DNA from: Thermomonas sp. XSG
GTDB taxonomy: Bacteria > Pseudomonadota > Gammaproteobacteria > Xanthomonadales > Xanthomonadaceae
Reading direction: 5' to 3'
Length of the DNA: 64,000 nucleotides
NCBI RefSeq assembly: GCF_014678725.1
Contig: NZ_CP061497.1
Location: 1,938,001 to 2,002,000 of the forward strand
The translations under genes and the position numbers were made by a program. Below, in pieces: positions 29,474 to 51,850 of the stretch (the stretch's first letter is position 1; every line of letters starts with the position of its first letter). The notes beneath the pieces were generated by a model. It had not been told where the DNA came from and did no database searches. It was given only the letters and a program-made list of their open reading frames with translations.

Positions 29474-31645
29474 ATGACACCCGGCGATCCCGCGCTTGCC
29501 CTGCACGACCCCGCGCCCGACGCGGCGGCGGTGCCGGACTACGTGCAGGCGCTGGAGCGCGCCGCCTATTACCTCGACGACGCGCAGCGCGCACAGCTGC
29601 GCCGCGCCTGGGCGATCGGTGCGGCCGCCCACGCCGGGCAGACCCGCAAGTCGGGCGAGCCCTACATCACCCATCCGGTGGCGGTGTCGCAGGTGCTGGC
29701 CGAGCTGGGGCTGGACCTGGAGACGCTGGTCGCGGCGATCCTGCACGACACCATCGAAGACACCCCGCTGACCCGGGCCGACGTCGCCGCGCAGTTCGGC
29801 GAGACCGTGGCCGAGCTGGTCGATGGCGTCACCAAGCTGGAGAAGGTGCGCTTCGCCGACAAGCAGGAAGCGGCGGCGGAAAGCTTCCGCAAGATGCTGC
29901 TGGCGATGTCGCGCGACCTGCGCGTGATCATGATCAAGCTGGCCGACCGCCTGCACAACATGCGCACGCTGGGAGCGAAGTCCCCGGACGCGCGTCGCCG
30001 CATCGCGGTGGAGACGCTGGAGATCTACGCGCCGATCGCGCAGCGCCTGGGCATGAACCTGGTCAAGGCGGAACTGCAGGACCTCGGTTTCAAGGCGCTG
30101 CATCCGTGGCGGCACGCGGTGATCGCCAAGCGCATCCGCAGCCAGCCGCTGGTGCGGCGCGAGGCGCTGGTGCAGATCGAGGCGCGGCTGGCGCAGCGGT
30201 TGGCGCTGGAAAAACTCGAGCACCGCCTGGTGGGCAGGGTGAAGACGCCGTGGAGCGTCTATACCAAGATGCGCGCGCAGAGCCGCAGCTTCGCCCAGGT
30301 GATGGACGTGTTCGGTTTCCGGGTGGTGGTGGACACGGTGGCTGACTGCTACCACGCGCTCGGCGTGGTGCATGCGGTGTACAAGCCGCTGGACGGCCGC
30401 TTCCGCGACTTCATCGCCATCCCCAAGGCGAACGGCTACCAGTCGCTGCACACGGTGCTGTTCGGGCCGTACGGCTCGCCCATCGAGGTGCAGATCCGCA
30501 CCCGCGAGATGGACCTGATCGCCGAGCGCGGCGTGGCCGCGCACTGGGCCTACAAGATCGGCGTCGACGGTGGCGGCAACAGCGCGCAGAGCCGGGCGGC
30601 CGCGTGGATCGCCAACCTGGTGGAGACCCAGCGCGGCACCGGTTCGTCGCTGGAATTCCTGGAGAACGTCAAGGTCGACCTGTTCCCCGACGAGGTCTAC
30701 CTGTTCACGCCGAAGGGCGACATCCTCTCGCTGCCGCGCAATTCCACCGCGCTCGACTTCGCCTACGCTGTGCATACCGATGTGGGCAACCATGCGGTGA
30801 CCGCGCGCGTGGACCGCCGGCTGGCACCGCTGCGTACCAAGCTGGTCAGTGGGCAGTCGGTGGAGATCATCACCGCGAAGTCGGCGGTGCCGACCACCCA
30901 GTGGCTGGAGTTCGTGGCCACCAGCAAGGCGCGCACCGCGATCCGCCAGCAGCTCAAGCAGCTGGAGCACGAGGACGCGGTGCAGCTGGGCCATTACATG
31001 CTGGACCGCGCGTTGGGCGCGCAGGGCACCGCGCTGGACCGCATCCCGATGCCGCGGCTGGAGGCCTACCTGGCCGACAACCGCTACACGCGGCTGGAGG
31101 CGATGCTGGCCGATATCGCGTTGGGCAACCGCATGCCCTCGCAGGTGGCGCTGGCACTGGCGCAGCAGCAGAGCGCCGCGGCCCAGCCGGGCGCCGCCGC
31201 GCCGCAGGAGCGCATCCTCATCACCGGCGGCGAGCGCGGGGTGATCAGCTTTGCGCAGTGCTGCCTGCCGATCCCGCGCGACGAGATCATGGGCTACCAC
31301 AGCGCCGGCAAGGGCATCGTGGTGCACCGGATGGAGTGCCCGAACCTCGCCGAGCTGCGCAAGTCGCCGGAGCGCTGGGTGGCGATCGGCTGGGACCGCG
31401 AGGTGTCCGGCGATTTCAGCTCGGCGATCCGCATCGAGGTGGAGAACCGCCCGGGCGTGCTGGCGCAGGTGGCGGCGGCGATCGCCAATGCCGACTCCAA
31501 CATCGACCGGGTGGAGTACCTGGAGCGCGACAGCAACATCGCCGTGCTGCGTTTCGGCATCGACGTCACCGACGGACGCCACCTGGCCGAAGTCATCCGC
31601 GGCGTGCGCCGGCTGCAGGTGGTGCAGGACGTGCAGCGCTGCTGA
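29474..31645 (+). CDS. spoT: Bifunctional (p)ppGpp synthetase/hydrolase SpoT
   Basis: A long RelA/SpoT-homologue protein (723 residues). The HD hydrolase domain is intact (ITHPVAV, ILHDTIEDT with His91-Asp92, and KLADRLHNMRTL). The synthetase domain has FRDFIAIPKANGYQSLHTVLFGP. A TGS domain (DEVYLFTPKGDILSLPRNSTALDFAYAVHTDVG) and a C-terminal ACT domain follow. It is expected to make and degrade the stringent-response alarmone. Context downstream of gmk and rpoZ is the classical spoT locus. Confidence 0.95.
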   Translation: MTPGDPALALHDPAPDAAAVPDYVQALERAAYYLDDAQRAQLRRAWAIGAAAHAGQTRKSGEPYITHPVAVSQVLAELGLDLETLVAAILHDTIEDTPLTRADVAAQFGETVAELVDGVTKLEKVRFADKQEAAAESFRKMLLAMSRDLRVIMIKLADRLHNMRTLGAKSPDARRRIAVETLEIYAPIAQRLGMNLVKAELQDLGFKALHPWRHAVIAKRIRSQPLVRREALVQIEARLAQRLALEKLEHRLVGRVKTPWSVYTKMRAQSRSFAQVMDVFGFRVVVDTVADCYHALGVVHAVYKPLDGRFRDFIAIPKANGYQSLHTVLFGPYGSPIEVQIRTREMDLIAERGVAAHWAYKIGVDGGGNSAQSRAAAWIANLVETQRGTGSSLEFLENVKVDLFPDEVYLFTPKGDILSLPRNSTALDFAYAVHTDVGNHAVTARVDRRLAPLRTKLVSGQSVEIITAKSAVPTTQWLEFVATSKARTAIRQQLKQLEHEDAVQLGHYMLDRALGAQGTALDRIPMPRLEAYLADNRYTRLEAMLADIALGNRMPSQVALALAQQQSAAAQPGAAAPQERILITGGERGVISFAQCCLPIPRDEIMGYHSAGKGIVVHRMECPNLAELRKSPERWVAIGWDREVSGDFSSAIRIEVENRPGVLAQVAAAIANADSNIDRVEYLERDSNIAVLRFGIDVTDGRHLAEVIRGVRRLQVVQDVQRC

Positions 31646-31726: not shown

Positions 31727-32107
31727 ATGTCCCGCACCCCGATCCATTCCGACGCCGCACCCGCAGCCATCGGCCCGTACTCGCAGGCGATCCGCGCCGG
31801 CAACACCGTCTACCTGTCGGGGCAGACGCCGCTGGTGCCGGCCACCGGGCAGATGGCCGAAGGCGACATCGAGGCGCAGGCGCGGCAGGCATTCGACAAC
31901 CTGAAGGCGGTCTGCGAAGCGGCCGGCGGCTCGTTCGACAACATCGTGCGGCTGGGCCTGTACCTGACCGACCTGGGCGATTTCGCCCGCGTCAACGCGG
32001 TGATGGCGGAATATTTCAGCCAGCCCTATCCGGCGCGTTCCACCATCCAGGCGTCCGCGCTGCCGCGCGGCGCCGCGTTCGAAGTCGATGGCGTGATGGT
32101 GATCTGA
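31727..32107 (+). CDS. ridA: RidA family enamine/imine deaminase
   Basis: A 126-residue YjgF/RidA protein that hydrolyses reactive 2-aminoacrylate-type enamines, a by-product of PLP enzymes such as threonine dehydratase. Motifs are [20 protein letters not shown], and near the C-terminus [21 protein letters not shown], with the substrate-binding arginine in the ARST segment. It lies between spoT and recG, a common order in this group. Confidence 0.95.
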
Positions 32108-32132: not shown

Positions 32133-33197
32133 ATGCCCGCCGCAGCATCGCCCGCGCTTGCCGACACCCCTCTTTCCGTCCTGACCGGCGTCGGCCCGGC
32201 GCTGCGGGAGAAGCTGGCTGCGCGCGGGCTTTCCACCCTGCAGGACCTGTGGCTGCACCTGCCGCGCAGCTACGAGGACCGCACCGCTGTCACCCCCATC
32301 AGGCTGCTGCAGCCGGGCGTGGCGGCGCAGGTGGAGGGACGGGTGGAAGCGGTCGAGCGCGGGTTCCGCTACCGCCCGATGCTGCGGGTGGCCCTGTCCG
32401 ACGAAGGCCGCGGCACGCTGGTGCTGCGGTTCTTCCATTTCCGCGCGGCGCAGGTGGCGCAGTTTGCGGTGGGCGCGCGCGTGCGCGCCTACGGCACCCC
32501 GCGGCCCGGCCAGTTCGGGCTGGAGATCGTGCATCCCAGCTATCAGGTGCTGGGTGGCGAAGTGGCGCTGGGCGAAACGCTGGATCCGGTCTATCCGGCC
32601 ATCGAGGGCATCGGCCCGGCCAGCGTGCGCAAGCTGGTGCTGCAGGCCCTGCAGCGACTTCCGGACGAGTCCGCGCTGGAACTGCTGCCGCCAGCACTGC
32701 GGCGCGCGCTGCACCTGCCGTCGCTGCGCGAGGCCATCCTCACCCTGCACATGCCCCCGCGCGATGCCGACGTCGCCGCGCTGCAAAGCGGCCTGCATCC
32801 GGCCCAGCGGCGGCTGGCGCTGGAGGAACTGCTGGCCCACCAGCTGGGCCTGCGCCGGCAGCGGCTGGCGCTGCAGGCCGAGGGCACGCGCGCGCTGCGC
32901 GGCGATGAAAAACTGGTGGCTGAATTGAAGAAGTCGCTGCCGTTCGCGCTCACGTCGGCACAGGCGCGGGTCTATGCGCAGCTGCGCGAGGACCTGCGCC
33001 AGCCGCGCCCGATGCTGCGGCTGGTGCAGGGCGACGTGGCTTTGGGAGTGTTAGCCTGTCGCTCTGTTCACAGTAAGGGTCGGCGATGGCGCGGCCGAAG
33101 AAATTGCTGTCCTCGGGGGCAAACCCGGAGTCGACCCTCACCCTTAACGCTCAAGGTAGCACTTCCTCGTCCGACCATCCGCTCCTCCTCGAGCTAG
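32133..33197 (+). pseudogene. recG: recG 5' fragment, ATP-dependent DNA helicase interrupted by a genomic island
   Basis: The first 302 codons encode the RecG wedge (OB-fold) region and the lead-in to the helicase core: LTGVGPALREKLAARGLSTLQDLWLHLPRSYEDRT at the start and ALTSAQARVYAQLREDLRQPRPMLRLVQGDV at the end. An intact RecG continues GSGKT (Walker A) exactly here. Instead, from about base 33040 the frame reads unrelated sequence and stops at 33197. The helicase domains are missing, so the product cannot be a working RecG. The remainder of recG is presumably beyond the right edge, at the far end of the island. Confidence 0.9.
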
Positions 33198-35647
33198 CCG
33201 CTGCATTCTTACTGGCGCTCCACGACAGCTTGGCTGTCGGATGGCAGGGCGGCCGCTCCCGGAGAGCGACGACATTTACAACGCCGGCGGGGCAGTTTGA
33301 CGTGCGGCTGTTCAACGGACGGGTCGGCGACTGGCGAGCGCCCCGACGCGTGAGTTTCCAGCAAGTCCTCTTGGAGCGATGGGGCGCGCTCGCGGATCTA
33401 TTTAATGCGCTTCTTGCCGGCGACCCCACCGACCTACGCCTGTTCTCCGATCACGTCTCGGCATTTCTCGGCGACCAGTACGACGTTCGACGGACCAACA
33501 CGGTCGTCGCCCGCGTCGAAGCAAAGCTGGTTGTGCTCGGCATTCGTACCGACCCTGAGAAGGACGCCCACAGGCACGCCGACGCGATCCGCACGTGGGT
33601 GCAGATGAACGGTCTTCCCAAGGCAGTGGTCGACCTGGCCCACGGCAGGCCGCGTGTCGACGTCCCTGCTCTCGTGCAGCACGCGGGCGAGTACGACGCG
33701 CACCTGGGCGCTGTTCTTGCTCCGCTGTTGCAGGAGACGCTCGATGAAGTGGCGGTGCGCTCGCCTTGGTCCGAAAGCGCGAAGCGCTTTGTGCCGACGA
33801 CCCACCGACCACACGGCCGCGAAACATTCCCGGGCGTTCTGTTCGACTTCCAACGCTTCGGAGTCGAGCGGGGCGGTCTACTCGACGCCGTCATAGACCA
33901 GATCCAGCTGCCGGGCGACCACCTAACGACGGGGGCGCTACGGAACTGGATCTTGTGGCTCACGTGCGAGAACAGGGACGACTCCCAGCGAGCGCAGGCG
34001 GTCGAGATACTCTCGAAAGTATCCGGACATACACCCGCGGAGGCGCGCACGCTCAGTGAGCTGCTTGCCGGTGTTACCGCGCTCCGCGCGATGACCGACA
34101 AGACTCGCTACGGGTACATCACGAGCTTTCGCCACCTACTGACCCGCACGTATCTCGCCATCGGCGCAGAGGCTCCCCGCTTCCCGCGTGGCGCCATGAA
34201 AGCGCTCGTGACGACAACGCGTGGGATGCTCAGCGACGCGCCTGATCCAGGCGCAATCAACCCCGAATTCCGCTCGACGATCGTGAACGTCGCCCAGGGG
34301 CCGCCGCAGCGGGCTCGGCAAAGTGCGATCGGTCACGTGGAAGACCGACTTCTGCGCGTGAAGGCAGCTTGCGACCAGGACATCGAAGGATTCCTGAAGT
34401 GGAGGGCGTGGACTGAAGCCGCCGAAGCGCTTCCCCTCGACGAACAAGCGCTGGGTTACGTCGACCGCCTCATCGCCCATGGCGCACGCGAAGATTCGAG
34501 CCTCCAGCGCTGGCTGGTCATGGCGGACCTTCAAACCATCGTTGCAGTAGGTCTGGCAGCCATGAGGAAGAATGGCTACCACACGCGAGAAGGTTACGGC
34601 GTGCGGGTCGCGACCAACCGCTCCATCAATCTCGGACTCGCGGCAGAACGGTTACAGATGGCGTTCCCTGAGCTGGAGCGGTGGTCCAGCAAAAGATCGG
34701 GTCAGGGCAGGTTCTCAACCTTCCGCAACCTGCTCAGCCACTGGTATGTCCCACGATGGGTGCAGTTTGCTATCGAGCTGCGGATTCAAGCGGAAACTGC
34801 ATTCAACCGTCATACCGTCAGGAGCCTGACCGCGTCTGGCATAAGTATCAGCAACGCCACGATCGAGCTGCAGGCGCTGAAGGGTAAGACGGAAGAGCTT
34901 CAAACAGCCGAGATCGATGGCTCGGACCGAACGCTCCGTGCTGCACTCGAGCTGATGAGGGGACACAGCAAGAATGTCGTCGAGCACTGGCAGGCCGATG
35001 AAAAGCGTGTCTTCGTTGCGCTGGTGAGCAGCAACGACACGGTTTCGTTCGGTCTTTGGCCATGCCACCACATACATGAGCGCTTCATCGAGTTCCACAA
35101 GCTCTTCAAGTTCACCCGAGAGCAGTTGCGAAACCAGAATGCAGGGCTCGCTTATCTCAAGCGCCAAGATGTCCATGAGGTCCAGGGTCGACTTGGCCAT
35201 GCGAGCCTCAAGACCACCTCGGGCTACGTTCGTCAGCACATAATCTCGGTCCTGAATCGCGCGAACATCGCTGAGTTCGTGCGTCGATTGGGCGCGAGCA
35301 TCGTCTGGGCCATCGAGGGTTCTGAGGCTGTGGGAAGTCGCGGCATGCTGGAGGCCGATGTAAGCGCACGGCTTCTCTTCCCGCTAGGTGTTCAAAAGCA
35401 GGTCACTGCAGCGCCCGAGTGTGATGCGTGGATTGCGGATCCTGAGTGGAAACTGCAAATCGACGAGGTTCGCATACGTCATCTCGTTGCCCAGCGCGCC
35501 TATTACGCGCGGAACTGGCAGAAGCTCAGGGCGTCTTCGCCGGAGGCGTACGAAAAGGTGCATCGGCCGCGTATCGAGTTCGTCGCGGCTCTCTGGGAGA
35601 TCGTGGCCGATTCGGAGTTTGCCCAACTGCTTCAGGAGCCAGCATGA
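33086..35647 (+). CDS. Large tyrosine-recombinase-like protein, first gene of island operon
   Basis: An 853-residue protein. The C-terminal half has the layout of a tyrosine recombinase: a box I-like segment ELRIQAETAFNRHTVRSL (about residues 565-582) and a box II-like segment FTREQLRNQNAGLA...LGHASLKTTSGYVRQ (about 675-715), which keeps the Arg, the LGH and the nucleophile-position Tyr. The His of HxLR and the following His appear changed (EQLRN), so catalysis may be altered. The N-terminal 550 residues have no motif I recognise. It begins 46 bp inside the island and overlaps the next gene by 4 bases (ATGA). Confidence 0.75.
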   Translation: MARPKKLLSSGANPESTLTLNAQGSTSSSDHPLLLELAAAFLLALHDSLAVGWQGGRSRRATTFTTPAGQFDVRLFNGRVGDWRAPRRVSFQQVLLERWGALADLFNALLAGDPTDLRLFSDHVSAFLGDQYDVRRTNTVVARVEAKLVVLGIRTDPEKDAHRHADAIRTWVQMNGLPKAVVDLAHGRPRVDVPALVQHAGEYDAHLGAVLAPLLQETLDEVAVRSPWSESAKRFVPTTHRPHGRETFPGVLFDFQRFGVERGGLLDAVIDQIQLPGDHLTTGALRNWILWLTCENRDDSQRAQAVEILSKVSGHTPAEARTLSELLAGVTALRAMTDKTRYGYITSFRHLLTRTYLAIGAEAPRFPRGAMKALVTTTRGMLSDAPDPGAINPEFRSTIVNVAQGPPQRARQSAIGHVEDRLLRVKAACDQDIEGFLKWRAWTEAAEALPLDEQALGYVDRLIAHGAREDSSLQRWLVMADLQTIVAVGLAAMRKNGYHTREGYGVRVATNRSINLGLAAERLQMAFPELERWSSKRSGQGRFSTFRNLLSHWYVPRWVQFAIELRIQAETAFNRHTVRSLTASGISISNATIELQALKGKTEELQTAEIDGSDRTLRAALELMRGHSKNVVEHWQADEKRVFVALVSSNDTVSFGLWPCHHIHERFIEFHKLFKFTREQLRNQNAGLAYLKRQDVHEVQGRLGHASLKTTSGYVRQHIISVLNRANIAEFVRRLGASIVWAIEGSEAVGSRGMLEADVSARLLFPLGVQKQVTAAPECDAWIADPEWKLQIDEVRIRHLVAQRAYYARNWQKLRASSPEAYEKVHRPRIEFVAALWEIVADSEFAQLLQEPA

Positions 35648-37926
35648 ACCCCGCAGTCGCACTGAGCGAAGCGCACGCAGTCAACGCCTCCCAGGTCGAG
35701 GCTCCGGCCGGGCACTGGCCTGAACATCAGATCTCCCACCCTGCCATTCTCAGTCGCTGGGAAGATCCGTTCCTCCTGATCAGAGCGGAGTCAGGAGTCG
35801 TCCGTCGCTTTGACCTGGCAGAGGTTCCGTTGCCTCGGAATTGCGACGTGGGCGGTCCAATTACAAAGCCATGCAAGCTTGGCGACTTTCCGCACTGGAT
35901 GGACGTCTGTAAAGCCTACGCTGCGCTGGCCCTTCACGACACGTCGGCCTACACAGCCGTTGATATCGTCAGCAACGCATTGGGCAATGTTTATCGATTC
36001 TTTGCCTGGTGCATCAGGCGCCGGGTGCTGCATCTGAACGTTCTGACGGAGAGCGATCTCAAGGCGTTTGCACAGGAGCTCCAGCCCAATGGCTGGTTCA
36101 GTGCCCTTCCGATCGAGCCGTGGATTCGGGCTGCACTCGACGAAGCGAAGGCTGATGAGTATCTACGCTCGCGCCTTATCTCGCATAGGCGCAATAACTC
36201 CTTTGTCAGCTTCAACACGGAGGGGCTGTCGCGCGAGATCGGTTGTGTCGTCACACAACCTGAGTACCCCTCCTGGATGGGGGAGCACCTACAGGAACTC
36301 TCGCCTGATGCCTCGATTCGGTTTCAGGTGCAGCGGGCAAGGAAGGATCGTGCATGGTCCGCGTCCTCTTTCAAGAACTGCTTTGTAGCCGTTCGCCGCC
36401 TGAGTCGCATCGCCGCGCCGTTGGATCGCCTTACTTTCGACCCGTTTCCCAACACGCGGGCAGCCGCCATCGCGTCGGGCGGCCGTCCGGACGGGCGGAC
36501 GCCCAACTTACCCATCGAGGAGGCAGGTCGACTGCTGGGCACCTCCCTGAGTTGGATCTACGAGAAGTCGCCGGGGGTCGAGGAACTTCTCCGTATCTGG
36601 ACGGATGCGAAAGCCTCGGCCGAGGCCGCAGGCCTGAATGGCAAGTCCATTCCGGCGGCATGCCTGCGCGTCGTCAACAAGGCCTATCCCGAGATTGCCG
36701 CCCGATTCGACTTGCCACGCGGGAAGATCGGCCTCGCGAGCATCTCGGCAGACGGGCTATCGATCGCTGACTTTCTACAACGCATTCAGACATCGGCCGT
36801 CGTACTGATCGGCATCAACCAGGCTCGTCGAAAGAACGAGGTCACCGGAGAGGACGACCGCCCTTGGGGCGTCTACGCAGGCTGCGTGTCCAGGTCCGAC
36901 CCGTTCGTCGAAGCCTACGAGATCGACATGTACATCGAGAAGACGTGGCGGGACTGGCGAAAGATGCCAGCGAACCGTATTACGGCTGATGTAGTGAGCG
37001 TACTCGAGCGGCTACGGGTGGCGATGCCCGGTCCTGCCATGCGGGTAAGCGACGACGTCAGTGAGAGGCGAAGGAACAAGCTCTTCGTTTTTCCCACGCA
37101 GGCGCATGACCGAAACGCTGAGCTGGCGGAATACCGGTTTAGCAAACACAGCGACACACTCTTTAAAGAGGCAAAGGTCGATCCAAAGTGGCGGCGCACG
37201 CATCAGTTCAGACGGCTTTTCGCATTGTTGTATATGTACCGACACGATCACCCGTCGCTGCAGGCGCTGTCAGAGATGCTCTGCCATCTGGACATCGAGT
37301 GCACTCGGACATACGTCACGGACGCCAGTATGGTCGCCGAGGCCGAGCGAATCGCAGTGCTGTATCGCTGTCAAGACGAGGCCCCGCTCGAGGAGCTGGC
37401 CGAAGCGCGGCGGGAGTATGCAGAAGAGCAGATCCGGGCCATGCTCACCTCGGCCGAAGCAGGCGGAACGTTGACGCGTCGTGTGCGCAGGTGGGTCAAA
37501 GCCCTGGTGTCGAAAGTGGAATTCGACGCGGATGACCTTGAACGTGCGCTAGCGGCGGTCCGGACGAAGATGGACAAGCGCGGCTACAGTCCGGAGTCAT
37601 ATCCGCACGGCATCTGCTGGGCAAGCCATCGCCACGCGTCGCGCGCGAGCTGCGGCCGTGGCGGGGATCTGGCCCGGGAGCACGCGGGCATCGACGTTTG
37701 CTCGAAGTGCCCATTTCATAGTACGTCGGTCGCATTCCTTGAGAACGTTGAGCGAGATCTTAGGCAGCTGCGTGAAGCCGAGGACGTGGCTGCATGTTCG
37801 GCGGAGGCGGCGACCGTCAGGCAGGAGATCGTGGCCTTGGAAGGACTTCTGGCCATGGAGCGCCGCTTGATGGAGCGCGAGTGGCGGCAAGACCCCGATA
37901 GAGCCGTTTTGGAGGAGCCCGCGTGA
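35644..37926 (+). CDS. Large tyrosine recombinase with C-terminal Cys cluster, second gene of island operon
   Basis: A 760-residue protein starting in the stop codon of the previous gene; the longer frame (from 35446) overlaps that gene and is rejected. Catalytic-type residues are Arg395/396 (GINQARRKNEVTG), His520-x-x-Arg523 (THQFRRLFALLYMYRH), His548 (MLCHLDIECTRTYV) and Tyr557, in the order expected for a tyrosine recombinase. Past the catalytic domain is a Cys/His-rich stretch (GICWASHRH, CGRGGD, DVCSKCPFH), possibly zinc-binding, then a charged helix. Its stop overlaps the GTG of the next gene. Distant relationship to the TnpB-type recombinase of Tn554 elements is possible. Confidence 0.8.
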   Translation: MNPAVALSEAHAVNASQVEAPAGHWPEHQISHPAILSRWEDPFLLIRAESGVVRRFDLAEVPLPRNCDVGGPITKPCKLGDFPHWMDVCKAYAALALHDTSAYTAVDIVSNALGNVYRFFAWCIRRRVLHLNVLTESDLKAFAQELQPNGWFSALPIEPWIRAALDEAKADEYLRSRLISHRRNNSFVSFNTEGLSREIGCVVTQPEYPSWMGEHLQELSPDASIRFQVQRARKDRAWSASSFKNCFVAVRRLSRIAAPLDRLTFDPFPNTRAAAIASGGRPDGRTPNLPIEEAGRLLGTSLSWIYEKSPGVEELLRIWTDAKASAEAAGLNGKSIPAACLRVVNKAYPEIAARFDLPRGKIGLASISADGLSIADFLQRIQTSAVVLIGINQARRKNEVTGEDDRPWGVYAGCVSRSDPFVEAYEIDMYIEKTWRDWRKMPANRITADVVSVLERLRVAMPGPAMRVSDDVSERRRNKLFVFPTQAHDRNAELAEYRFSKHSDTLFKEAKVDPKWRRTHQFRRLFALLYMYRHDHPSLQALSEMLCHLDIECTRTYVTDASMVAEAERIAVLYRCQDEAPLEELAEARREYAEEQIRAMLTSAEAGGTLTRRVRRWVKALVSKVEFDADDLERALAAVRTKMDKRGYSPESYPHGICWASHRHASRASCGRGGDLAREHAGIDVCSKCPFHSTSVAFLENVERDLRQLREAEDVAACSAEAATVRQEIVALEGLLAMERRLMEREWRQDPDRAVLEEPA

Positions 37927-38531
37927 CGACGACTCCGAACCACGTTTCCAACGCCAACAAGGTCGCAGCGAAGGCCGCGATCGTTGCAAAACGCGAGCAG
38001 TTGGAGCACTGGTCGCGGACGGGGCTGCCATTCAAAGGGGGCGCGACGCCTACCGTTGGTGAGCCCTACGAATTCGATTGGTATCCCCAGAGCCTGCGGG
38101 ACTTCTGCCGGTGGGATGGTTCACAGAACAGCCCCGAGATCGGGCCGTTTCGAGCCACGGCGTTTCAAACGCTCTGCTCGTATCCCGAGGAGAAGGCGAC
38201 GGTAACGTCCCTGCTGGCGGCGCTCGAGAAACTGCGGTCGGCAACGATCAAGCGTCTTGATCCTAAAGCCGCGCTACGGGATGCAGAGGGACAGGTGCTG
38301 ATCGAGCGGCAGTTACGCGCGGGGGCATTACTCGGGTATCGCGCGGCCCGCCAGCAGGTGCGTGTCCTGGCCGCGTCCTTGGCCGATGAGCAGCGCGCGC
38401 ATCGGGAATCCATAGCGCACCTGTCGGAGCAGCTAGAGAAGGCCCATCGGGACGTGGCGGCGTTGTCGGCGGAAGTCGCTGCGCTGACGGCGACCATTCG
38501 CAAAGTGAAGCCCATCCGGGCAGTCGGTTGA
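37923..38531 (+). CDS. Coiled-coil accessory protein, third gene of island operon (TnpC-like position)
   Basis: A 202-residue protein starting at GTG 37923, overlapping the upstream stop by 4 bases. The N-terminal 100 residues are compact with no recognised domain; the C-terminal 80 are heptad-patterned (RVLAASLADEQRAHRESIAHLSEQLEKAHRDVAALSAEV pattern, about 135-190). A small coiled-coil protein after two recombinases is reminiscent of TnpC in Tn554, but similarity is by size, position and coiled coil only. Confidence 0.75.
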   Translation: MTTTPNHVSNANKVAAKAAIVAKREQLEHWSRTGLPFKGGATPTVGEPYEFDWYPQSLRDFCRWDGSQNSPEIGPFRATAFQTLCSYPEEKATVTSLLAALEKLRSATIKRLDPKAALRDAEGQVLIERQLRAGALLGYRAARQQVRVLAASLADEQRAHRESIAHLSEQLEKAHRDVAALSAEVAALTATIRKVKPIRAVG

Positions 38532-38544
38532 AAGGACGTCGCAA

Positions 38545-40557
38545 TTGACCTGGATGCTCGACCAGTCCGATACCCCTGTGGGGGGCCATGATCCGAGGGA
38601 TCTTGCTGCTCGACTGAGCGCGGGCGTGGATCGGAGCCGGGCCCTGAAGCGCTTGGGCGCCGTCGGAGTGTCAGAGCTTTGGCAGGCAGCCCTCTATCTT
38701 CCGACCCGTTTTCTCGATGCACGTCAGCCCATAGAACGGTTTTTCGGACTGGGTCCTTCCACGGGCGATGTCGTCTGTGTCGGCCGTTACGCGGGCGACT
38801 TCCGTACCCGGTGGACCCCCCGCCGCGGCCGCGCGACGGCGCCGCAGGCCCAGGGCTCACTGGTCGATGGCGTCGGGATGAAAGTGCGCTTCTCCGTGTT
38901 CGGCGACGCGCGGAGCCTGCAAAAGGCGCTGGAAGAGGCAGGCGTCGAGCCGGTGGCCTTCGCAGGCACGCTCACCGCCGTGGGCGACCTTCTTTTTTTG
39001 AACAATCCGGTCTTGCTGGACGCTAGCGCACTCGGCCACGTGCTTCCCGTATACCCAGGCAAGACGCGCGTGCTGTCGGTCGCCATGGCCCGAAAGCTGG
39101 TGACTGCGCTGCTCCCTGACGCGATTCCTGCCGCGGCGGCACATCTGCGGGCGTCCGTGAGCGGTGTCATTGACCCCTTAGACCTCCGGCGCCTCCTCCG
39201 TCGCCCGCGCGGAACCTTGGAAGACCTGTTGTGGGAAGCGCACCTGCCGGCGGCGCCCGAGATCGGGGAGGCGGCGCAGCAGAGCCTGGAAAGGCTCTCG
39301 GCGATCCTCACGATCGGCGAGCTGCGTGAGCTCCAGGGTGAACACCCACCCGCTCGCCAAGCGTTTGATATCGGGGGATGGCAGGATCTGTTGGGCCGGG
39401 TGCCGTTCCGACTCACCGACGAGCAACGCGCAGCCGCAGCCCAGCTCGTGGACCGTTTCCGAGGGCCGACGACGTCGGCGACCTTGATCAATGCCGACGT
39501 CGGCATGGGCAAGTCGATCGTGTACCAGCTGGCGTCCGCGGCTGCAGTACGCGCGGGCGCCCGGGCCGCTGTGATGCTTCCCAACGAGCGTCTAGCGTCG
39601 CAAGCGCATCAAGAGATCGTGCGCCTGTTTCCGGAGCTCGGTGCCGTATTAGTGACAGGCAAGAGCAGGAAAAACGCCAAGTCGAGCAACTGGCTTGTAG
39701 GAACGACGGCCATGTTGTTCCGGGACGTGGGGCCACTGGACATCTGCGTCGTCGACGAACAGCACCGGTTCTCCGTGGACCAGCGCAGGGCACTCGCGGC
39801 AAACGGCACGCACGTGGTCGAGATCAGCGCGACTCCGATCCCGCGAACACAAGCGCTCTTGCTATACGGAAAGCTGGATGTCATTCGGCTGACGCATCGT
39901 CACAGTCCACAAGACATCCACACGCGCGTGGTCGAGCGCGGCGGTACTGACCAGATGATCGACGAGATTCGGAGCGTCATCGCTCGCGGATCCCGGGTGC
40001 TGATCGTATGTCCGCGTCGCGAGGAGAGCGAGGAGGATGACGGCGAGGCGCTTCCGTCGGTCGCGCGTGTCGCTGGAAAATGGGAGCGTCTCTTTCCCGG
40101 GATCGTCCGGTCGCTGCACGGCGAATCCGAGCCGGAGACGGTGCAGGTCGCCTTCGACGATATCGCGAGCGGTGCGGCTCAGATCCTCGTCGCGACGACA
40201 GTGGTCGAGGTCGGGCTGAACATCCCGGATCTGCGTGCAGTGATCATCGTGCATGCCGAGCGGTTCGGCATTTCCCAGCTCCATCAGCTGCGAGGGCGCC
40301 TGGCCCGTGAAGGCGGGCATGGCGTCTGCTATCTCTACCTTCCTCGACGCGCGGGCATGGATGCCATGGCCCGACTGAACGCCGTGGCGGCAACGAACGA
40401 CGGCTTCGAGCTCGCGGAGTTTGATATGCGTGCTCGGGGCATCGGGGATGTCTCGCAGGCAGGCCAAAGGCAGCACGGGGGCACCGGGAGCATTTTGTTG
40501 ACCCGGCCGGTCCCGATGGACGTCTTCGTCGAGGTACTCGCCGAGGTCAGCCGTTGA
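38545..40557 (+). CDS. RecG-like superfamily 2 helicase carried by the island
   Basis: A 670-residue RecG homologue, divergent from the host gene it replaces in position. The N-terminal wedge-type region (ALKRLGAVGVSELWQAALYLPTRF) is followed by Walker A ADVGMGKS (Lys323), the RecG-type motif II DEQHRFSVDQRRAL (Asp404-Glu-Gln-His), motif III SATPIPRT, and motifs V/VI VVEVGLNIPDLRAVIIVHAERFG with QLHQLRGRLARE; a C-terminal FDMRARGIGDV matches the RecG TRG-like tail. It starts at TTG 38545 with AAAGGA seven bases before it (ATG 38554 possible). It is embedded in the recombinase operon and overlaps the next gene. A role in branch migration during element movement, or substitution for host RecG, is inference. 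Confidence 0.88.
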   Translation: MTWMLDQSDTPVGGHDPRDLAARLSAGVDRSRALKRLGAVGVSELWQAALYLPTRFLDARQPIERFFGLGPSTGDVVCVGRYAGDFRTRWTPRRGRATAPQAQGSLVDGVGMKVRFSVFGDARSLQKALEEAGVEPVAFAGTLTAVGDLLFLNNPVLLDASALGHVLPVYPGKTRVLSVAMARKLVTALLPDAIPAAAAHLRASVSGVIDPLDLRRLLRRPRGTLEDLLWEAHLPAAPEIGEAAQQSLERLSAILTIGELRELQGEHPPARQAFDIGGWQDLLGRVPFRLTDEQRAAAAQLVDRFRGPTTSATLINADVGMGKSIVYQLASAAAVRAGARAAVMLPNERLASQAHQEIVRLFPELGAVLVTGKSRKNAKSSNWLVGTTAMLFRDVGPLDICVVDEQHRFSVDQRRALAANGTHVVEISATPIPRTQALLLYGKLDVIRLTHRHSPQDIHTRVVERGGTDQMIDEIRSVIARGSRVLIVCPRREESEEDDGEALPSVARVAGKWERLFPGIVRSLHGESEPETVQVAFDDIASGAAQILVATTVVEVGLNIPDLRAVIIVHAERFGISQLHQLRGRLAREGGHGVCYLYLPRRAGMDAMARLNAVAATNDGFELAEFDMRARGIGDVSQAGQRQHGGTGSILLTRPVPMDVFVEVLAEVSR

Positions 40558-41858
40558 GCACGGCCCTCGCGCTCGTTGAGTGGACCGATGACGGGCGCGG
40601 TGGGGTGCCCGTGTTCTACGACCGCCGCCGGCGGCTGGTGGATGCGCTCCACGACTTCGTCGAGTCCATCGCGGCAGCCAAGCGTGACGTCGCCTCTCCG
40701 ACCGGGTATCGCTCGGCTGTCGATCCGGTCACATACGCGCTTCTGGGCTGGCTTCGCTTCCTGGACGCCAAAGGGCTCGACCTGTGGGCGGCCACCGACG
40801 CTCTTCTGGTCGAGCACCGGGACAACGAAGTAAAGGCCGTCATGCAGTCTCCGCGCGCGAAGCAGGAGAAGCGCCTGGCCATGCGGACCGTCAATGATCG
40901 TTTGCGCTGGATCTATCGCTTCTATGCATGGTGTCGACGGGATGCGCTGCTGGGCGTGGCCGTTTTGGGCCTGAAGGGGCCGGTCACCTCGACCCTCTGC
41001 GAGCCCGCGGCGCGCACGAGTCAAGGAAAGCCCAAGCGCGATCCCGCAACCGACTATCCGAAGTGTTTCAAGCGAGTATCAGGCCGGGGAAGTGGTAAGC
41101 AACATTTTGCTACCAGCGAGGAGAAGCGAAGGCTCATCGAGGCGCTGACGACCAGTGACGACGCATTCGTGCGCGAGAGGAACCGACTGTGGATCGAGCT
41201 GACTGACCGCGTCGGTTGGCGCGCTGTAACGCTCACAGGCTTGGAGGTAGACGACTTTTCGCCGGATCGATCGACCGAGCTGGACGATGGCAGTCGCCTG
41301 GTATCGCCCAAAGTACAAAAGTTCGGCTACGGCGACAGCTTCGAGGTTCCCGCGACGCTTTTCGCACGCGTGACGCGGTTTATTGCCGCGCGCGAGGCTC
41401 GTATGAAGCAGAACGGGTGGTCGGAAGCGGTATCGCAGCGAAGGCTCTTCACCAGTGCCACATCAGGGCGGCCGTTGGGCGACCAGACCATCGTGCAGGC
41501 GTTCGGCAAGGCGTATCGCGCGATTGGTGTACCTGCGCGTCAGGGGGCCGGCCACCACAGTCTGCGGCGAAAATTCGGCGATGGGGCGGCCGTGCAGGAG
41601 CTCCAGTCCCGCAAGGAGCTCGGCCTCTCGACAGCTGCGGAAGACGTGATGCACGCGACCGCGCGGAAGCTCGGACAGCGCAGCATTGCGTCGCAGACGC
41701 CTTACCAGCGCGCCGTTCGGTCAGGCACGCGCGAGTCGACGGTTGCGAAGCTCAGCCAGACGGTCGAGGAGCAGAATTCCGTCATTGCCGATCAAGACGA
41801 GGAAATTCGCCGCTTGCGGCTTGAGGTGGAGCGAGCAAAGGCTGGGCTCCAGACTTAG
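40554..41858 (+). CDS. Tyrosine recombinase/integrase, fifth gene of island operon
   Basis: A 434-residue tyrosine recombinase that starts with TTG inside the stop of the helicase gene (TTGA overlap). It has an N-terminal SAM-like domain (residues 20-130, including RWIYRFYAWCRRDALL). The catalytic set is complete: Arg223 (DRVGWRAVTLTGLEVDDF), a Lys in the KVQKFG hairpin, His335-Ser-Leu-Arg338, the GH/GQ position as LGQ, and Tyr384 (QTPYQRAV). The C-terminal 40 residues are a coiled coil (VAKLSQTVEEQNSVIADQDEEI pattern). It is the best candidate for the enzyme that cuts and joins the island ends. Confidence 0.88.
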   Translation: MSTALALVEWTDDGRGGVPVFYDRRRRLVDALHDFVESIAAAKRDVASPTGYRSAVDPVTYALLGWLRFLDAKGLDLWAATDALLVEHRDNEVKAVMQSPRAKQEKRLAMRTVNDRLRWIYRFYAWCRRDALLGVAVLGLKGPVTSTLCEPAARTSQGKPKRDPATDYPKCFKRVSGRGSGKQHFATSEEKRRLIEALTTSDDAFVRERNRLWIELTDRVGWRAVTLTGLEVDDFSPDRSTELDDGSRLVSPKVQKFGYGDSFEVPATLFARVTRFIAAREARMKQNGWSEAVSQRRLFTSATSGRPLGDQTIVQAFGKAYRAIGVPARQGAGHHSLRRKFGDGAAVQELQSRKELGLSTAAEDVMHATARKLGQRSIASQTPYQRAVRSGTRESTVAKLSQTVEEQNSVIADQDEEIRRLRLEVERAKAGLQT

Positions 41859-43256: not shown

Positions 43257-44663
43257 ATGGCCGAGACATACGACGTCATCATCATTGGCGGTGGACCAGG
43301 CGGCTATCCGGCCGCGATTCGTGGCGCGCAGCTGGGTCTCAAAGTCGCTTGCATCGAACGTCGCCGGCGCCTGGGTGGGACATGCCTCAACATTGGCTGC
43401 ATTCCGTCCAAGGCCCTGCTCGAGTCATCCGAGCGCTTCCACGCGGCCTCGAGCGAATTCGCGGTGCACGGGGTCGAGTTCGATGGGTTGCGGGTCAACC
43501 TGCCCCGGTTGCTGGCTCACAAGGATGATGTCGTCGCCGGCCTGGGCAACGGCATCGACTTCCTCTTCAAGAAGCACGGCGTAACGCGCCTGCAGGGTAG
43601 CGGCCGGATCGCAGCGCCAGGGCGCGTCGAAGTCACGGACGATGCCGGGCACACTCAAGAGTTTTCAGGCCGCTGGATCATCATCGCGACCGGATCGGAC
43701 AGCACGCCGCTGCGCGGCGTCGAGGTCGATGAGGATCGGATCGTATCGTCGACAGGCGCGCTTTCGTTCCCGGAGGTGCCCGCGCACCTCGTGGTCATCG
43801 GTGCGGGCTACGTCGGCCTCGAACTCGGCTCGGTGTGGCGTCGACTGGGTGCCCGAGTCACCGTGGTCGAATACCTTGACCGCATCACACCAGGAATGGA
43901 CGTCGAAGCAGCGACGGTGCTGCACAAGGCGCTGAAGTCGCAGGGCTTCGAGTTCCGCCTCTCCCAGAAAGTCGTCGGCGCGGCAGTGAACGGTGACGGT
44001 GTTGAGCTCTTGATCGAACCGGCCAACGGCGGTGCTCAGGATCGGATCCACGCTGATCGGGTGCTGGTCTCCATCGGGCGTCGGCCCTTCACCGAGGGAC
44101 TAAACCTGGAACAGCTCGGCGTGGAGCGCGACGCGAAGGGCTTCATCAAGGTCGACGACCACTGGCGCACGAATGTCGAAGGGATCTACGCGATCGGCGA
44201 TGTCATCGGTGGCGCGATGCTCGCGCACAAGGCGAGCGAAGAGGGTGTTGCGTTGATCGAGCAGCTGGCGGGACTGCCGGGGCATGTGAACTACGGGACG
44301 ATCCCGGCCGTGATCTACACGGCACCCGAGGTGGGCTCGGTCGGTCAGACGGAGGAGCAGCTCAAGGCTGCAGGCATCCCATACAAGGTGGGGCGATTCC
44401 CCTTCAGCGCCAGCGCGCGTGCACGTGCCAAGGCGCAGACCGATGGGCTCGCCAAGGTGCTGGCGCACGCGGAGACGGACCGCATTCTTGGCGTACACAT
44501 CGTGGGCCCGGAGGCGGGCTCGCTCATCCATGAGGCCGTCGTCGCGATGGAGTTCAGCGGATCGGCGGACGACGTGGCGCGCAGCTGCCACGCCCATCCC
44601 ACGCTCCCGGAGGCCCTGAAGGAAGCTGCGATGGCGGTGAACGGCTGGGCCCTGCACATCTAA
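43257..44663 (+). CDS. lpdA: Dihydrolipoyl dehydrogenase
   Basis: A 468-residue flavoprotein disulfide reductase. The FAD motif IIGGGPGGYPAAIRGAQLG is at residues 9-27, the redox-active pair in GGTCLNIGCIPSKALL, the NAD-binding GAGYVGLELGS near residue 184, and the catalytic His-Glu in HAHPTLPEALKEA near the end. Unlike the host enzyme it is not beside pyruvate or 2-oxoglutarate dehydrogenase subunits; it has its own metal-regulator-type promoter. In this setting it may serve thiol redox under metal stress, an inference. Confidence 0.92.
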   Translation: MAETYDVIIIGGGPGGYPAAIRGAQLGLKVACIERRRRLGGTCLNIGCIPSKALLESSERFHAASSEFAVHGVEFDGLRVNLPRLLAHKDDVVAGLGNGIDFLFKKHGVTRLQGSGRIAAPGRVEVTDDAGHTQEFSGRWIIIATGSDSTPLRGVEVDEDRIVSSTGALSFPEVPAHLVVIGAGYVGLELGSVWRRLGARVTVVEYLDRITPGMDVEAATVLHKALKSQGFEFRLSQKVVGAAVNGDGVELLIEPANGGAQDRIHADRVLVSIGRRPFTEGLNLEQLGVERDAKGFIKVDDHWRTNVEGIYAIGDVIGGAMLAHKASEEGVALIEQLAGLPGHVNYGTIPAVIYTAPEVGSVGQTEEQLKAAGIPYKVGRFPFSASARARAKAQTDGLAKVLAHAETDRILGVHIVGPEAGSLIHEAVVAMEFSGSADDVARSCHAHPTLPEALKEAAMAVNGWALHI

Positions 44664-44727: not shown

Positions 44728-45990
44728 CTACGCCCCAGTTACGGGCGCAGGGGCGCCAGTACCGCGCGGAGCCGGCGCGGGAATATCGAAGACGAGCACG
44801 GTCATGATCAGTTCGCGATTGCTATCGGCCGGGTGGTGCATCACGAACCGGTACCCGGACTCGTGGGTCCAGGCAGGCGTCCGCTTGTAGTTCGCGTGGG
44901 CCTCGGTGGTCTTCTTGACCTCCTCCAGCACTTTCGTCGTATCCCTGTTTCGATTGAAGACGACGATTGCGGCCTTGGTATCACGCCAGGCGGAGTAGCC
45001 GAGCAGCTGGTCGATCGTCGCGGCGTAGCCTTTGGCGCCTTTCCAGAACTTGCACTCGGCAATGAAGATGTTCCTGTCCTGCTCCCGGATCAGGATGTCG
45101 GTCTTGCCCTGGTTGTTGAACGTCTCTCCCGTCGCGGAACCCTGGTAGTGGCCGTTCAGCTGTACGAGGTAGTGGTCGCGAAGGGACTCCTCGTCCATCC
45201 GCGCGAAGGTCGCGGGGCTGCGCTCCATGACGGTCGTCATGTTCTGGATCACGTCGAGGATGTGGTCGTAATGCTCCATCGCCAGGACAGGCTCCGGCTT
45301 GAATGGCGCAGTCGAGGCCGCCGGCAGTGTAGGCACTGCCTTCCTGCGCACGGCAGGAACGACATAGGTCTCCGGTGCGCCTGCGCGCTCACGCAACGGG
45401 ATGCCGAGTCCAGCGACCAAGCCCTGCTGGTGGAGGACTTGCTCGCGTCGTCGCCGGATCGCTTGGTCGGCAATCGCACCCAGAGAGCCGTTATAGGCCT
45501 CCAGGTCATTCCTGATCCATGCGAGGTGTCGCTCCACTTCGTCGATCTCGCGATCGATCAAAGCACGGACCGCCTCGGGCCCTCCCTGCTGGCCAGGCGT
45601 AAACGCCAAGGTCAGCGTCTGCGCTCCGGCGACCCCTCGAGGCGGCGACATCGTGAAGGTGCTCGCCCGCGACATGAAGAGGTCCCGGTCGCCAACGAAC
45701 GGAATGTGCACGTAAAGCCGCTGGACCGTTGCAGTGAACCGGTGACCGTAGTCCTCCCTCGTCTCGGTTTCCTCTTTCGACTCGACGCTCCATTGGTCCC
45801 GGTAAAGCGCAGGAGGCTCCATGTGGTACTTCTCGACGAAGAAGCGGGCAAGGTCGTCAGGTGATGTGTTCAAAAGCCGGTTGGGGTCGAGGGCGCGCAC
45901 TTCGCTATCGATCGCATGGCGGCGTGCATCAAGCGATGCGCGAAGGTCGAGATTGCTGAAAAGCAGATTGCTGCGGTCTGACAGGCCCAT
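44728..45990 (-). CDS. Probable PD-(D/E)xK-type nuclease-like protein
   Basis: A 420-residue protein with no known family match by eye. Near residues 305-325 it has a restriction-endonuclease-like core: GKTDILIREQDRNIFIAECKFW, i.e. Asp then Glu-x-Lys on successive strands, preceded by HYLVQLNGHYQGSATGE, which resembles Mrr/PD-(D/E)xK enzymes. The N-terminal part (1-200) includes a helical segment with many charged residues. It stands alone between lpdA and the small membrane protein, with no methylase partner, so a stand-alone defence or element-protection nuclease is possible. Not a confident assignment. Confidence 0.6.
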   Translation of the reverse strand: MGLSDRSNLLFSNLDLRASLDARRHAIDSEVRALDPNRLLNTSPDDLARFFVEKYHMEPPALYRDQWSVESKEETETREDYGHRFTATVQRLYVHIPFVGDRDLFMSRASTFTMSPPRGVAGAQTLTLAFTPGQQGGPEAVRALIDREIDEVERHLAWIRNDLEAYNGSLGAIADQAIRRRREQVLHQQGLVAGLGIPLRERAGAPETYVVPAVRRKAVPTLPAASTAPFKPEPVLAMEHYDHILDVIQNMTTVMERSPATFARMDEESLRDHYLVQLNGHYQGSATGETFNNQGKTDILIREQDRNIFIAECKFWKGAKGYAATIDQLLGYSAWRDTKAAIVVFNRNRDTTKVLEEVKKTTEAHANYKRTPAWTHESGYRFVMHHPADSNRELIMTVLVFDIPAPAPRGTGAPAPVTGA

Positions 45991-46197: not shown

Positions 46198-46551
46198 ATG
46201 GACAGAAGTGCGTGGATGTTGGTGAGAGCGTGTCTACCCGGTGCAGTGCTGTTTGCCGGAGCGCTCGTGTCGGCCGCACTACTCGCCGGCTTGAATCGAG
46301 GGCCATTGGCTGCAGGCTTGTTCGACATGCTCCGGTGGGTGCCGATCGCAATGGCCGGAGTGGGCTTTCTGCTCATAGGCGCCGCAAGTTATCGGCTATG
46401 GCGCTGGGAGCGCGGGATGGGCCCGTCGTGCGTAACGTGCGGTGGCCCGTTGGGACACGAGCGCGAGGGGCGCGCCAATCGCGGCGGCGCATTTCGGCGG
46501 TGCTATGCCTGCGGCAAAGCCGTGAACCACCGGTACTACGCCCATCAGTAG
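46198..46551 (+). CDS. Small membrane protein with zinc-ribbon-like tail
   Basis: A 117-residue protein with two hydrophobic segments (residues 7-30 and 40-65) and a cytoplasmic-type tail with two CxxC knuckles (CVTCGG and CYACGK, about 79-105). It looks like a membrane-anchored zinc ribbon. A plausible Shine-Dalgarno (CAGGGG) precedes the ATG. Its 3' end overlaps the end of convergent nadE by 7 bases. No function is known. Confidence 0.6.
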   Translation: MDRSAWMLVRACLPGAVLFAGALVSAALLAGLNRGPLAAGLFDMLRWVPIAMAGVGFLLIGAASYRLWRWERGMGPSCVTCGGPLGHEREGRANRGGAFRRCYACGKAVNHRYYAHQ

Positions 46552-48167: not shown

Positions 48168-48577
48168 CACGCCGCCTCGCCCGGGGCAGGAGAGTGCTTG
48201 AGGGCGTCGAGGATGGCGCACTGGGCCCGAACGCCGCCACCGCAGCTGCGGATGGTGCGCTCCAGCTCGCGCGCCACGCGCTGCAGGTCGCGAATGCGTT
48301 CCTGGACGTCGATCAGGTGCTGCTGCGCGAGGCGGGTGACGTCCTCGCACGCCAGATCGCCGTTCTGGTCCAGCCGCATCAGGCTTCGGATCTCGTCCAG
48401 GCTGAAGCCCAGATCCCGACCCCGGGTAATGAAGCGCAGACGTTCCACGTCCTGCTCCGAATACGACCGGTACCCGCTGCCCGTCCGGGTTGGCGACGGC
48501 ATGAGGCCGATCCGCTCGTAGTACCGGATCGTTTCCAGGTGGCAGCCGCTTGCCTGGGAGGCTTCGCTGATCTTCAC
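48167..48577 (-). CDS. MerR-family metal-responsive regulator (PbrR/CadR type)
   Basis: A 136-residue MerR-type activator: the N-terminal HTH MKISEASQASGCHLETIRYYERIGLM, long dimerisation helix and metal-binding cysteines Cys77, Cys112 and Cys120. Three cysteines in this spacing fit Pb/Cd/Zn-type regulators (PbrR, CadR, ZntR relatives), but the metal cannot be read from sequence alone. The divergent permease promoter has the matching 19-bp spacer. Co-transcribed with nadE. Confidence 0.9.
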   Translation of the reverse strand: MKISEASQASGCHLETIRYYERIGLMPSPTRTGSGYRSYSEQDVERLRFITRGRDLGFSLDEIRSLMRLDQNGDLACEDVTRLAQQHLIDVQERIRDLQRVARELERTIRSCGGGVRAQCAILDALKHSPAPGEAA

Positions 48578-48588: not shown

Positions 48589-48619
48589 TTGACTCTGTAG
48601 TCGCTACGGACTCTACGAT
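48589..48619 (+). promoter_or_regulatory. MerR-type (PbrR/CadR-like) promoter-operator upstream of the FTR1-family permease
   Basis: TTGACT and TACGAT with a 19-bp spacer carrying the near-perfect dyad CTGTAGTCGCTACGGA. It starts 12 bp upstream of the MerR-type gene, so it likely controls the divergent permease and autoregulates. Because the -10 overlaps 48618, the frame opening at that ATG cannot be the true start of the permease. Confidence 0.85.
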
Positions 48620-48647
48620 GCCAGCTCCGTCGAAGCGTGAAAAGTCG

Positions 48648-50624: not shown

Positions 50625-50746
50625 TTGCGGTACTTCGCCCCTGGGTATGGATGCCTAGCGGCAATACCGGTGGTGCACGAGTCGGTGCGCTGCGCTCGAT
50701 GCCAGTTGCCGATGAAATCCGTCCCTTTCTGGAACCCCACCGATGA
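50621..50746 (+). CDS. Predicted 41-residue small protein between permease and CDF genes
   Basis: An ATG overlaps the permease stop (ATGA) and its own stop TGA overlaps the CDF start (ATGA), so a 41-codon frame bridges the two genes exactly, with no unused base. Double 4-base overlaps in a tight operon argue for real translation. The product (starts MIAVLRPWVWMPSG, ends FLEPHR) is not recognised and has no signal or membrane segment. It may act as a coupling peptide or be functional. Confidence 0.5.
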   Translation: MIAVLRPWVWMPSGNTGGARVGALRSMPVADEIRPFLEPHR

Positions 50747-51366: not shown

Positions 51367-51472
51367 GTGCTTGGTAGAGCCTGCCATCGCCGAGCGGTTG
51401 CTCCAGACCCGGCGGTCGGCACCCACCCTTTTGAAATAGTGTACAGCTTGATGATCGCCTAACTTATCCACC

Positions 51473-51850
51473 GTGCTGAGCTGGAATGGCCCCCGCTGGA
51501 GAAACACGCTGCGCGTGCTCGCGTTGGCGCTGCTCGTGCTCAGCATGGTGGCCCGGCCTGTGCTAGCTGCGATCGGAGAGGCGCACGAACTGGCGCATGA
51601 TCCTAGCGGTCGGCATGTTCATGTCGCCGAAGCGGGCGGGACGGCCGCGGACGCGGCACCGGAAGAACGCTCAGTCGGGCACGCCCTGCTCCATTTCGCG
51701 CACTGTTGCGCCCAGCTGTCGGTGGCCATGGCGGATGGGCTGTTCATCCCCGCCGTAATGCCGCGCAGTTCGCTCGCGGTGCGCCCCGAGGTGGCGCCAC
51801 CCGGTTCGGGCGCCCGCGTCTCGCCGTTCCGACCTCCCATCGCGGGCTGA
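51473..51850 (+). CDS. Secreted His-containing protein, CzcI-like
   Basis: A 125-residue protein starting at GTG 51473 with a signal peptide (ALALLLVLSMVARPVLA) and a His-rich mature region (HELAHDPSGRHVHVAE, HALLHFAHCC). Small periplasmic proteins of this kind (CzcI type) stand directly before czcCBA. Similarity is by size, location and His content; function is unclear. Confidence 0.6.
   Translation: MLSWNGPRWRNTLRVLALALLVLSMVARPVLAAIGEAHELAHDPSGRHVHVAEAGGTAADAAPEERSVGHALLHFAHCCAQLSVAMADGLFIPAVMPRSSLAVRPEVAPPGSGARVSPFRPPIAG

Follow-up and report, generated by a model that had tools for sequence, protein, structure and literature searches.

A genomic island with a multi-recombinase operon splits recG and carries a distant RecG homologue

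Introduction

Tn554 targets radC, and the gamma-mobile-trio (GMT) is the trio gmtX-gmtY-gmtZ. To our knowledge, islands that break genes usually restore just the end of the gene or pick a harmless site. GInt is called a Tn6571-family transposon (PMC10121019). SEs are strand-biased circularizing integrative elements described with the gene order intA-tfp-intB-srap and no named helicase gene, and a copy-out route has been suggested for their movement (PMC10214605). Tn554 carries the three genes tnpABC without a helicase, and RITs carry three adjacent, overlapping recombinase genes in ~3.5 kb, for proteins of 315-410 aa that all have the catalytic Tyr, with no small fourth gene (PMC3414803, PMC10214605). 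Here we describe an island that interrupts the gene for a conserved repair helicase and has a remote homologue of that helicase in its recombination operon.

Results

A five-gene module lies within the host recG

The window, the whole 64,000-nucleotide stretch of DNA analysed, covers positions 1938001-2002000 of a 3.05-Mb genome (G000) assembled as a single contig. A sequence-only reading of it had proposed a module of five genes packed by 4-base overlaps, encoding two giant tyrosine recombinases, a coiled-coil protein, a RecG-like helicase and a small integrase. Five consecutive plus-strand open reading frames (ORFs) are indeed present there (Table 1). The tight packing holds at three of the four junctions (ATGA, GTGA, TTGA) and gives way to a 13-base gap between the coiled-coil protein and the helicase; the overlaps suggest that the five ORFs form one operon. 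What that reading missed is the most interesting fact here: the module interrupts the host recG, and the embedded helicase, which we call RecGe, is itself a RecG homologue.

The module is the left end of an island of ~34.9 kb that sits within the host recG and extends from window position 33040 to genome position 2005901, past the window end. The gene is cut in its Walker A codons (GDV|GSGKT), and joining the flanks in silico yields a 694-aa RecG reading without interruption and with GDVGSGKT restored. The G+C content of the island is 65.2%, versus 69.8% in the left and 69.0% in the right stretch, and no tRNA gene was found in the 64-kb window. As part of the whole explanation given below, the module is best read as an operon for the recombination of a mobile genomic island, whose insertion would be specific for the Walker A codons of chromosomal recG.

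Table 1. Features of the recG locus and its island, in window positions unless marked as genome positions
Feature	Position	Strand	Remarks
spoT	29474-31645		upstream of recG 5' part; name from reading of translation
RidA-like gene	31727-32107		between spoT and recG 5' part; name from reading of translation
Host recG 5' part	32133-33039	+	~302 codons; TIGR00643 positions 2-268; cut in Walker A codons
Left spacer CTTTGG	33040-33045	none	6 bp, foreign to host site
Left end arm GAGTGTTAGCC	33046-33056	none	inverted counterpart at right end
IntA (ORF1)	33086-35647	+	853 aa; diverged, recombinase-like, without Arg-I
IntB (ORF2)	35644-37926	+	760 aa; large tyrosine recombinase, complete catalytic residues, Cys/His-rich C-terminal stretch
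Small protein (ORF3)	37923-38531	+	202 aa; coiled coil at C-terminus
RecGe (ORF4)	38545-40557	+	670 aa; full-length RecG homologue, all helicase motifs
IntC (ORF5)	40554-41858	+	434 aa; tyrosine recombinase of ordinary size
Island cargo inside window	41911-64000		HTH regulator, lipoamide dehydrogenase, PDC-S54, NAD synthase, FTR1/cytochrome, efflux genes, P-type ATPase, IS
Lipoamide dehydrogenase copy	43257-44663	+	further genome matches at 363105 and 2082920
PDC-S54, candidate anti-phage gene (PADLOC)	44728-45990	-	E 1.8e-157
NAD synthase copy	46545-48350	-	second nadE match in genome at 2095329
Cation efflux cargo genes			CDF, OEP-HlyD-RND
Cargo past window end			MerA-like reductase, transposases
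Right end arm GGGCTTGCTAACATA	genome 2005886-2005900		beyond window; inverted repeat of left arm
Host recG 3' part	genome 2005895-2006986		beyond window; TIGR00643 positions 264-627

Two recombinases and a diverged third protein

IntB, whose 760 aa are counted from the ATG that overlaps the previous stop (the mechanical ORF has 826 aa), holds a complete residue set (R396, K433, H520, R523, H548 and Y557) and matches Phage_integrase weakly (E 0.001). Its profile matched no solved structure at E 1, and it matched no phage protein at E 1e-3; one viral-collection relative bears IntB, RecD2 and IntC matches. IntC has R223, K256, H335, R338, Q375 and Y384, the fifth catalytic place being Gln in the window version and His in the Pseudoxanthomonas version. 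Together with this residue set, a match to the integrase profile phrog_216 (E 3e-6) bears out the proposed small integrase; Pfam integrase models gave no match at E 0.1. The predicted IntC model (mean pLDDT 63.8) finds Cre and integron integrases as top structures and also XerH/XerD, at low TM-scores (0.3-0.4).

IntA retains K599, R682, H705 and Y714, and is without both Arg-I and the His of HxxR. Two of the six members of its family match Phage_integrase (best E 3.5e-7), and the C-terminal Xer match of IntA itself is weak (E 0.012). Profile comparison found no relation of the IntA family to the IntB and IntC families (probability 0.1-0.2%), and the IntA structure model is poor (pLDDT 46.9) and unfit as a search query. 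IntA may thus be called recombinase-like through its relatives and its own weak Xer match, a weak case for a recombinase. Profile searches for recombinase domains, proposed along with the sequence-only reading, recover IntB and IntC and, for IntA, that Xer match only, so that two giant tyrosine recombinases, as proposed, are not supported: one stands by its full catalytic set and the other is recombinase-like by relationship only. The coiled coil of ORF3 was judged from its sequence and from weak coiled-coil family matches. In plasmids the module DNA had no near match, and searches of plasmid records with ORF1, ORF2 and ORF5 at E 1e-5 returned nothing beyond the related-module plasmids described below.

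The RecG-type module recurs in four further genomes

Carriers are few. With the window's own genome counted in each case, searches with a profile of IntB relatives gave matches in 5 of 395 genomes at family level, 3 of 398 at order level and 2 of 398 at phylum level, and a search with the single IntB protein gave 2 of 369 in the class. A scan of the named genome collection reduced 62 candidate stretches to 14 loci, five of which hold a full module: four with RecGe (MAG WH4.bin29, L029; MAG Gammapro7, L030; Pseudoxanthomonas sp. Root630, L031; Pseudoxanthomonas mexicana DSM 17121, L032) and one with a RecD2-like helicase (L033, in genome G309). At the remaining nine loci the IntB match is weak, and eight of them have an IntC match downstream; in two such loci the ORFs, when read, encode a large protein, IntB, a small protein and IntC, in that four-gene order. 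The neighbourhood search thus finds the five-gene order in four genomes besides the window's own, which argues that the arrangement is not chance.

These five genomes fall into two lineages, G000 with G625 and G629 with G658 and G1135, and all five module ORFs are open in each. In every one recG is split at the same codons and model positions; the two parts share a contig in G000, G629 (~53 kb apart) and G1135 (~51 kb apart) and lie on separate ones in G625 and G658. The metagenome bin G1135 has two more near-full-length RecG matches on other contigs, each scoring 630 bits, under the cut-off, and these may not belong to that genome. In the two genomes checked whose modules lack RecGe, recG is intact (753 bits in G309, 733 bits in G667). 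In the window's genus recG exceeds the cut-off in 20 of 25 genomes, the rest being two carriers, two partial matches and one genome without a match at threshold. The second genus gives 33 of 38, with two carriers and three genomes without a match at threshold; among these three, G736 has recG in one frame plus an extra stretch, and the sole match in G752 and G1402 was read as Mfd. The genomes of the two genera with a split recG are the island carriers.

Modules are far more alike than the chromosomes around them. The left ~9.5 kb of the island is 99.98% identical between G629 and both G658 and G1135, where the left flanks are 89.7% and 84.6% identical, respectively, and the modules of these three genomes have 2 to 4 differences over 8774 bases. 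G000 and G625 share 99.6% identity over 15.6 kb of island, against 95.5% in the left and 93.7% in the right flank. Cargo past the module differs: in the stretches compared, the G629-G658 match stops after 9.5 kb. Near-identical modules in hosts with 85-90% identical flanks, the inverted ends and the 6-bp spacers indicate that the element moves, and the comparison points to recent passage between hosts into identical recG codons. A site-specific mobile island, as the sequence-only reading had surmised, is well borne out by the split of recG at the same codons in five of five genomes and by these identities.

Spacers and target site

Short inverted repeats form the arms of the island. At the left junction the sequence is ...GGCGACGTGG, then the spacer CTTTGG, then GAGTGTTAGCC; at the right junction it is GGGCTTGCTAACATA, G, the spacer GCAGCG and GCAAGACC. 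The window contains a single TGTTAGC, and the 11-kb right-end locus (L011) a single GCTAACA. In 22 recG loci from the window's genus the spacer reads GCAGCG in 21 and GCAGTG in one, indicating that the right spacer is host-derived and the left one foreign. In the second genus GCAGCG is found in 26 of 30 loci and GSGKT is encoded in all 30, these loci coming from 33 genomes over the cut-off, the remaining three of which gave no locus.

Both junctions are readable in all five RecG-type carriers. The left and right spacers are CTTTGG/GCAGCG in G625, GCACCG/GCAGCG in G629 and GGACAG/GCAGCG in G1135, so that the left spacer is foreign in these three and in G000; in G658 both are GTACGG and, being alike, leave no footprint to be read. 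GCACCG, GTACGG and GGACAG vary solely at third positions of Gly-Thr codons, and we infer that these left spacers are footprints of earlier recG sites, that of G658 being uninformative. The Walker A region of RecGe itself differs from the 21-bp host target by five mismatches in the window and by seven in the second lineage, so that the RecGe gene may escape being targeted.

RecGe belongs with plasmid RecG-like proteins

The helicase of the module is RecG-like, as had been proposed: RecGe matches the RecG family model TIGR00643 strongly (E 5e-85, at 286.6 bits below the curated cut-off of 659.4) and the solved RecG structure 1gm5 at E 1e-54. Motifs I, II, III, V and VI are kept, and the N-terminal region, corresponding to the RecG wedge/OB region, matches that of the host RecG with an hhalign probability of 99.5%. 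RecGe shares 27-29% identity with five chromosomal RecG proteins and 30-37% with eight RecG-like proteins of plasmids. A 15-protein tree splits the chromosomal RecG proteins from RecGe and the plasmid proteins with 100/100 support, and leaves the branching order on the latter side unresolved. Capture of the host recG as the origin of RecGe is ruled out by this placement. The low identity and the separate side of the tree also mean that equivalence to chromosomal RecG is not given. Unlike RecGe, the plasmid-borne helicases on its side of the tree lie, in all eight stretches inspected, without an annotated recombinase module within 3-7 kb.

The two RecG-type lineages share 62% identity in RecGe and 36-43% in the remaining four module proteins, and the RecGe differences fall mostly at third codon positions (0.65 versus 0.33 and 0.21). 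Such high conservation is as expected of a steady cellular duty; a RecG that generally changes more slowly would also explain it.

The helicase slot varies among related modules

A RecD2-like helicase fills the same slot, between the coiled-coil protein and IntC, in G309 (E 1.6e-103 against TIGR01448), an Alteromonas plasmid and a Rhodovastum plasmid, and the slot is without a helicase in a Methylibium plasmid and in G667. Pairs of RecD2-type modules are 32-33% identical in the helicase and 20-32% in the other proteins. A slot helicase that always matches the target gene found no support, the left end in G309 lying upstream of a gene that looks intact. The sole recD-model match of G309 at E 1e-15 is the RecD2-like gene of the element itself; at this threshold no second match, and hence no broken recD, was found.

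Other members of this group differ further. In G667 (L028 7449-15827) the IntB of the helicase-free module is broken by an insertion sequence and, by our reading of the ORFs, the module lies beside a truncated comM-like gene. The Rhodovastum plasmid has a RepB-type primase between the small protein and the RecD2-like helicase (L018 9855-10703), an arrangement that would suit a copying step. Modules of four genes (for a large, an IntB-like, a small and an IntC-like protein) occur in marine genomes, in Acinetobacter and, beside umuDC, in an IncT plasmid of Providencia (L035-L042, L145); they may represent a broader family with this gene order, and the plasmid modules in Pseudomonas and Providencia are possible GInts.

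Island cargo

Metal-related genes occupy window positions 48618-60477 and positions 570-2264 of the right-end locus L011 (FTR1/cytochrome, cation efflux, an RND set, a P-type ATPase and a MerA-like reductase). The second-lineage island also has efflux genes behind its module, by our reading of the ORFs. Given the other nadE and lipoamide dehydrogenase matches in the genome, the island versions are extra housekeeping copies.

Discussion

We favour, with a probability of roughly 0.6, a three-integrase island whose RecGe probably substitutes for the broken RecG and perhaps also serves recombination. IntB and IntC would recombine the two short inverted ends across a 6-bp spacer and so release a circle, which they would then insert into recG in a new host; IntA would assist as a partner with half or no catalytic function, and the coiled-coil protein would be an accessory. 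Circle formation is suggested by the work on GInt and SE (PMC5385486, PMC10214605). Insertion would destroy the host RecG while the operon supplies the plasmid-type RecGe; lying downstream of the recG promoter and running the same way, the operon could express RecGe in place of RecG. By taking over the work of RecG, RecGe would make insertion cheaper and loss of the island costlier, and it might also process branched intermediates of the element's own recombination. Comparison of the genomes shows the place of insertion, the ends, the split recG, the conserved module and the spread between species; we infer the circle, the part played by each recombinase, read-through of transcription from the recG promoter and the replacement of RecG by RecGe.

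Substitution is the simplest reading of RecGe elements lying in recG in five of five genomes, yet it draws on one or two evolutionary events: five genomes represent two element lineages, so the pairing of RecG with recG may be a single event. A direct role in recombination is the main rival, and may hold together with substitution. In its strict form, the helicase would be a factor for recombination or copying only, through branch migration or strand displacement in copy-out, and a RecG in recG would be coincidence or reflect the origin of the target preference. The RecD2-like helicases in the same slot of the G309, Alteromonas and Rhodovastum modules, the last with its primase, agree with this, and their left flanks, which show no broken recD, suggest movement rather than replacement. 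So does the place of the helicase gene inside the recombinase operon, its end overlapped by the start of IntC, as does the copy-out route suggested for SE-type islands (PMC10214605). Against it, the helicase-free four-gene modules of G667 and Methylibium imply that the machinery in general can dispense with a helicase, the conservation of RecGe far exceeds that of its partners, which is not so for RecD2 in the sister modules, and modules of the RecG type were found in recG only (five of five). We consider an exclusive role of this kind unlikely.

It is improbable that the element is a GInt (Tn6571 family) plus a captured helicase gene. Three recombinase-like genes with a small gene for a coiled-coil protein at one end of a cargo island, imperfect terminal repeats, 6-nt cuts and one recombinase without Arg-I, like GinC, would all suit a GInt as described (PMC5385486); the gene order does not, for ginD comes last in GInts, and here, as in the helicase-free relatives, the small gene is third and a recombinase last. 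A dead or passive island, with an accidental break in recG, a decaying module and a RecGe without a role, would suit the scarcity of carriers (2/369, 5/395, 2/398 and 3/398), and is very hard to reconcile with five ORFs open in five genomes, modules with no more than 4 differences in 8774 bases in three hosts that share 85-90% flank identity, and RecGe changes concentrated at third codon positions.

If RecGe replaces RecG, as we favour, the island would be a case of gene substitution by a mobile element with built-in host retention, and a natural test of how diverged two RecG proteins can be while keeping the same function. If RecGe serves movement, it would exemplify, with the RecD2-type sisters, helicase-assisted tyrosine recombination, which would bear on the way in which elements of the SE, GInt and Tn554 kinds are copied or excised. 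Tentatively, and with rather less confidence than in substitution itself, we propose a class of islands that pay for their own damage: they would disrupt a conserved helicase gene of genome maintenance at its ATP-binding codons and provide a remote but functional form of that helicase from the recombination operon, making the host dependent and possibly coupling movement to RecG activity.

Comparison with known multi-recombinase elements

Described elements share much with the recG island. GInts likewise have a recombination operon with three recombinase-like genes plus a small gene at one island end, one recombinase without the first Arg (GinC there, IntA here), large variable cargo including metal resistance, site-specific insertion, and imperfect terminal repeats with 6-7 nt cuts, beside the 6-bp spacers and short inverted arms of the island (PMC5385486). 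Excision of GInts as circles needs all four of their genes. The order ginABCD is replaced here by one in which RecGe and IntC follow the small gene, and the island, compared with GInt by description rather than by Gin sequence, adds the embedded helicase and a target in the middle of recG. SEs resemble it in two recombinases of unequal size, a further recombinase-like protein without the full catalytic set and a small accessory protein, and differ in gene order and in hosts; their 6-bp footprint lies at attR, whereas the putative footprint of the recG island lies at the left end (PMC10214605). Tn554 has one large and one ordinary tyrosine recombinase, a small TnpC-like protein and the 6-bp spacer behaviour, in three genes against five here (PMC3414803, PMC10214605). 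The run of adjacent, overlapping recombinase genes recalls RITs, from which recombinase-like proteins of 853, 760 and 434 aa and two further genes set the island apart. In position and size, ORF3 resembles GinD, Srap and TnpC. No NCBIfam match named gamma-mobile-trio was obtained for the five module proteins from a library that may or may not hold such models.

The sequence-only reading had suggested an undescribed type of transposon. The literature searched, outside which lie preprints and most subscription papers, yielded no element in recG or with this gene set, and to that extent the suggestion holds; the likeness in kind to GInt, SE and Tn554 tempers it. The five-gene island is better put as a variant of these known islands with several tyrosine recombinases and a small coiled-coil protein, and what is unusual in it is the pairing of a recG target with an embedded RecG homologue.
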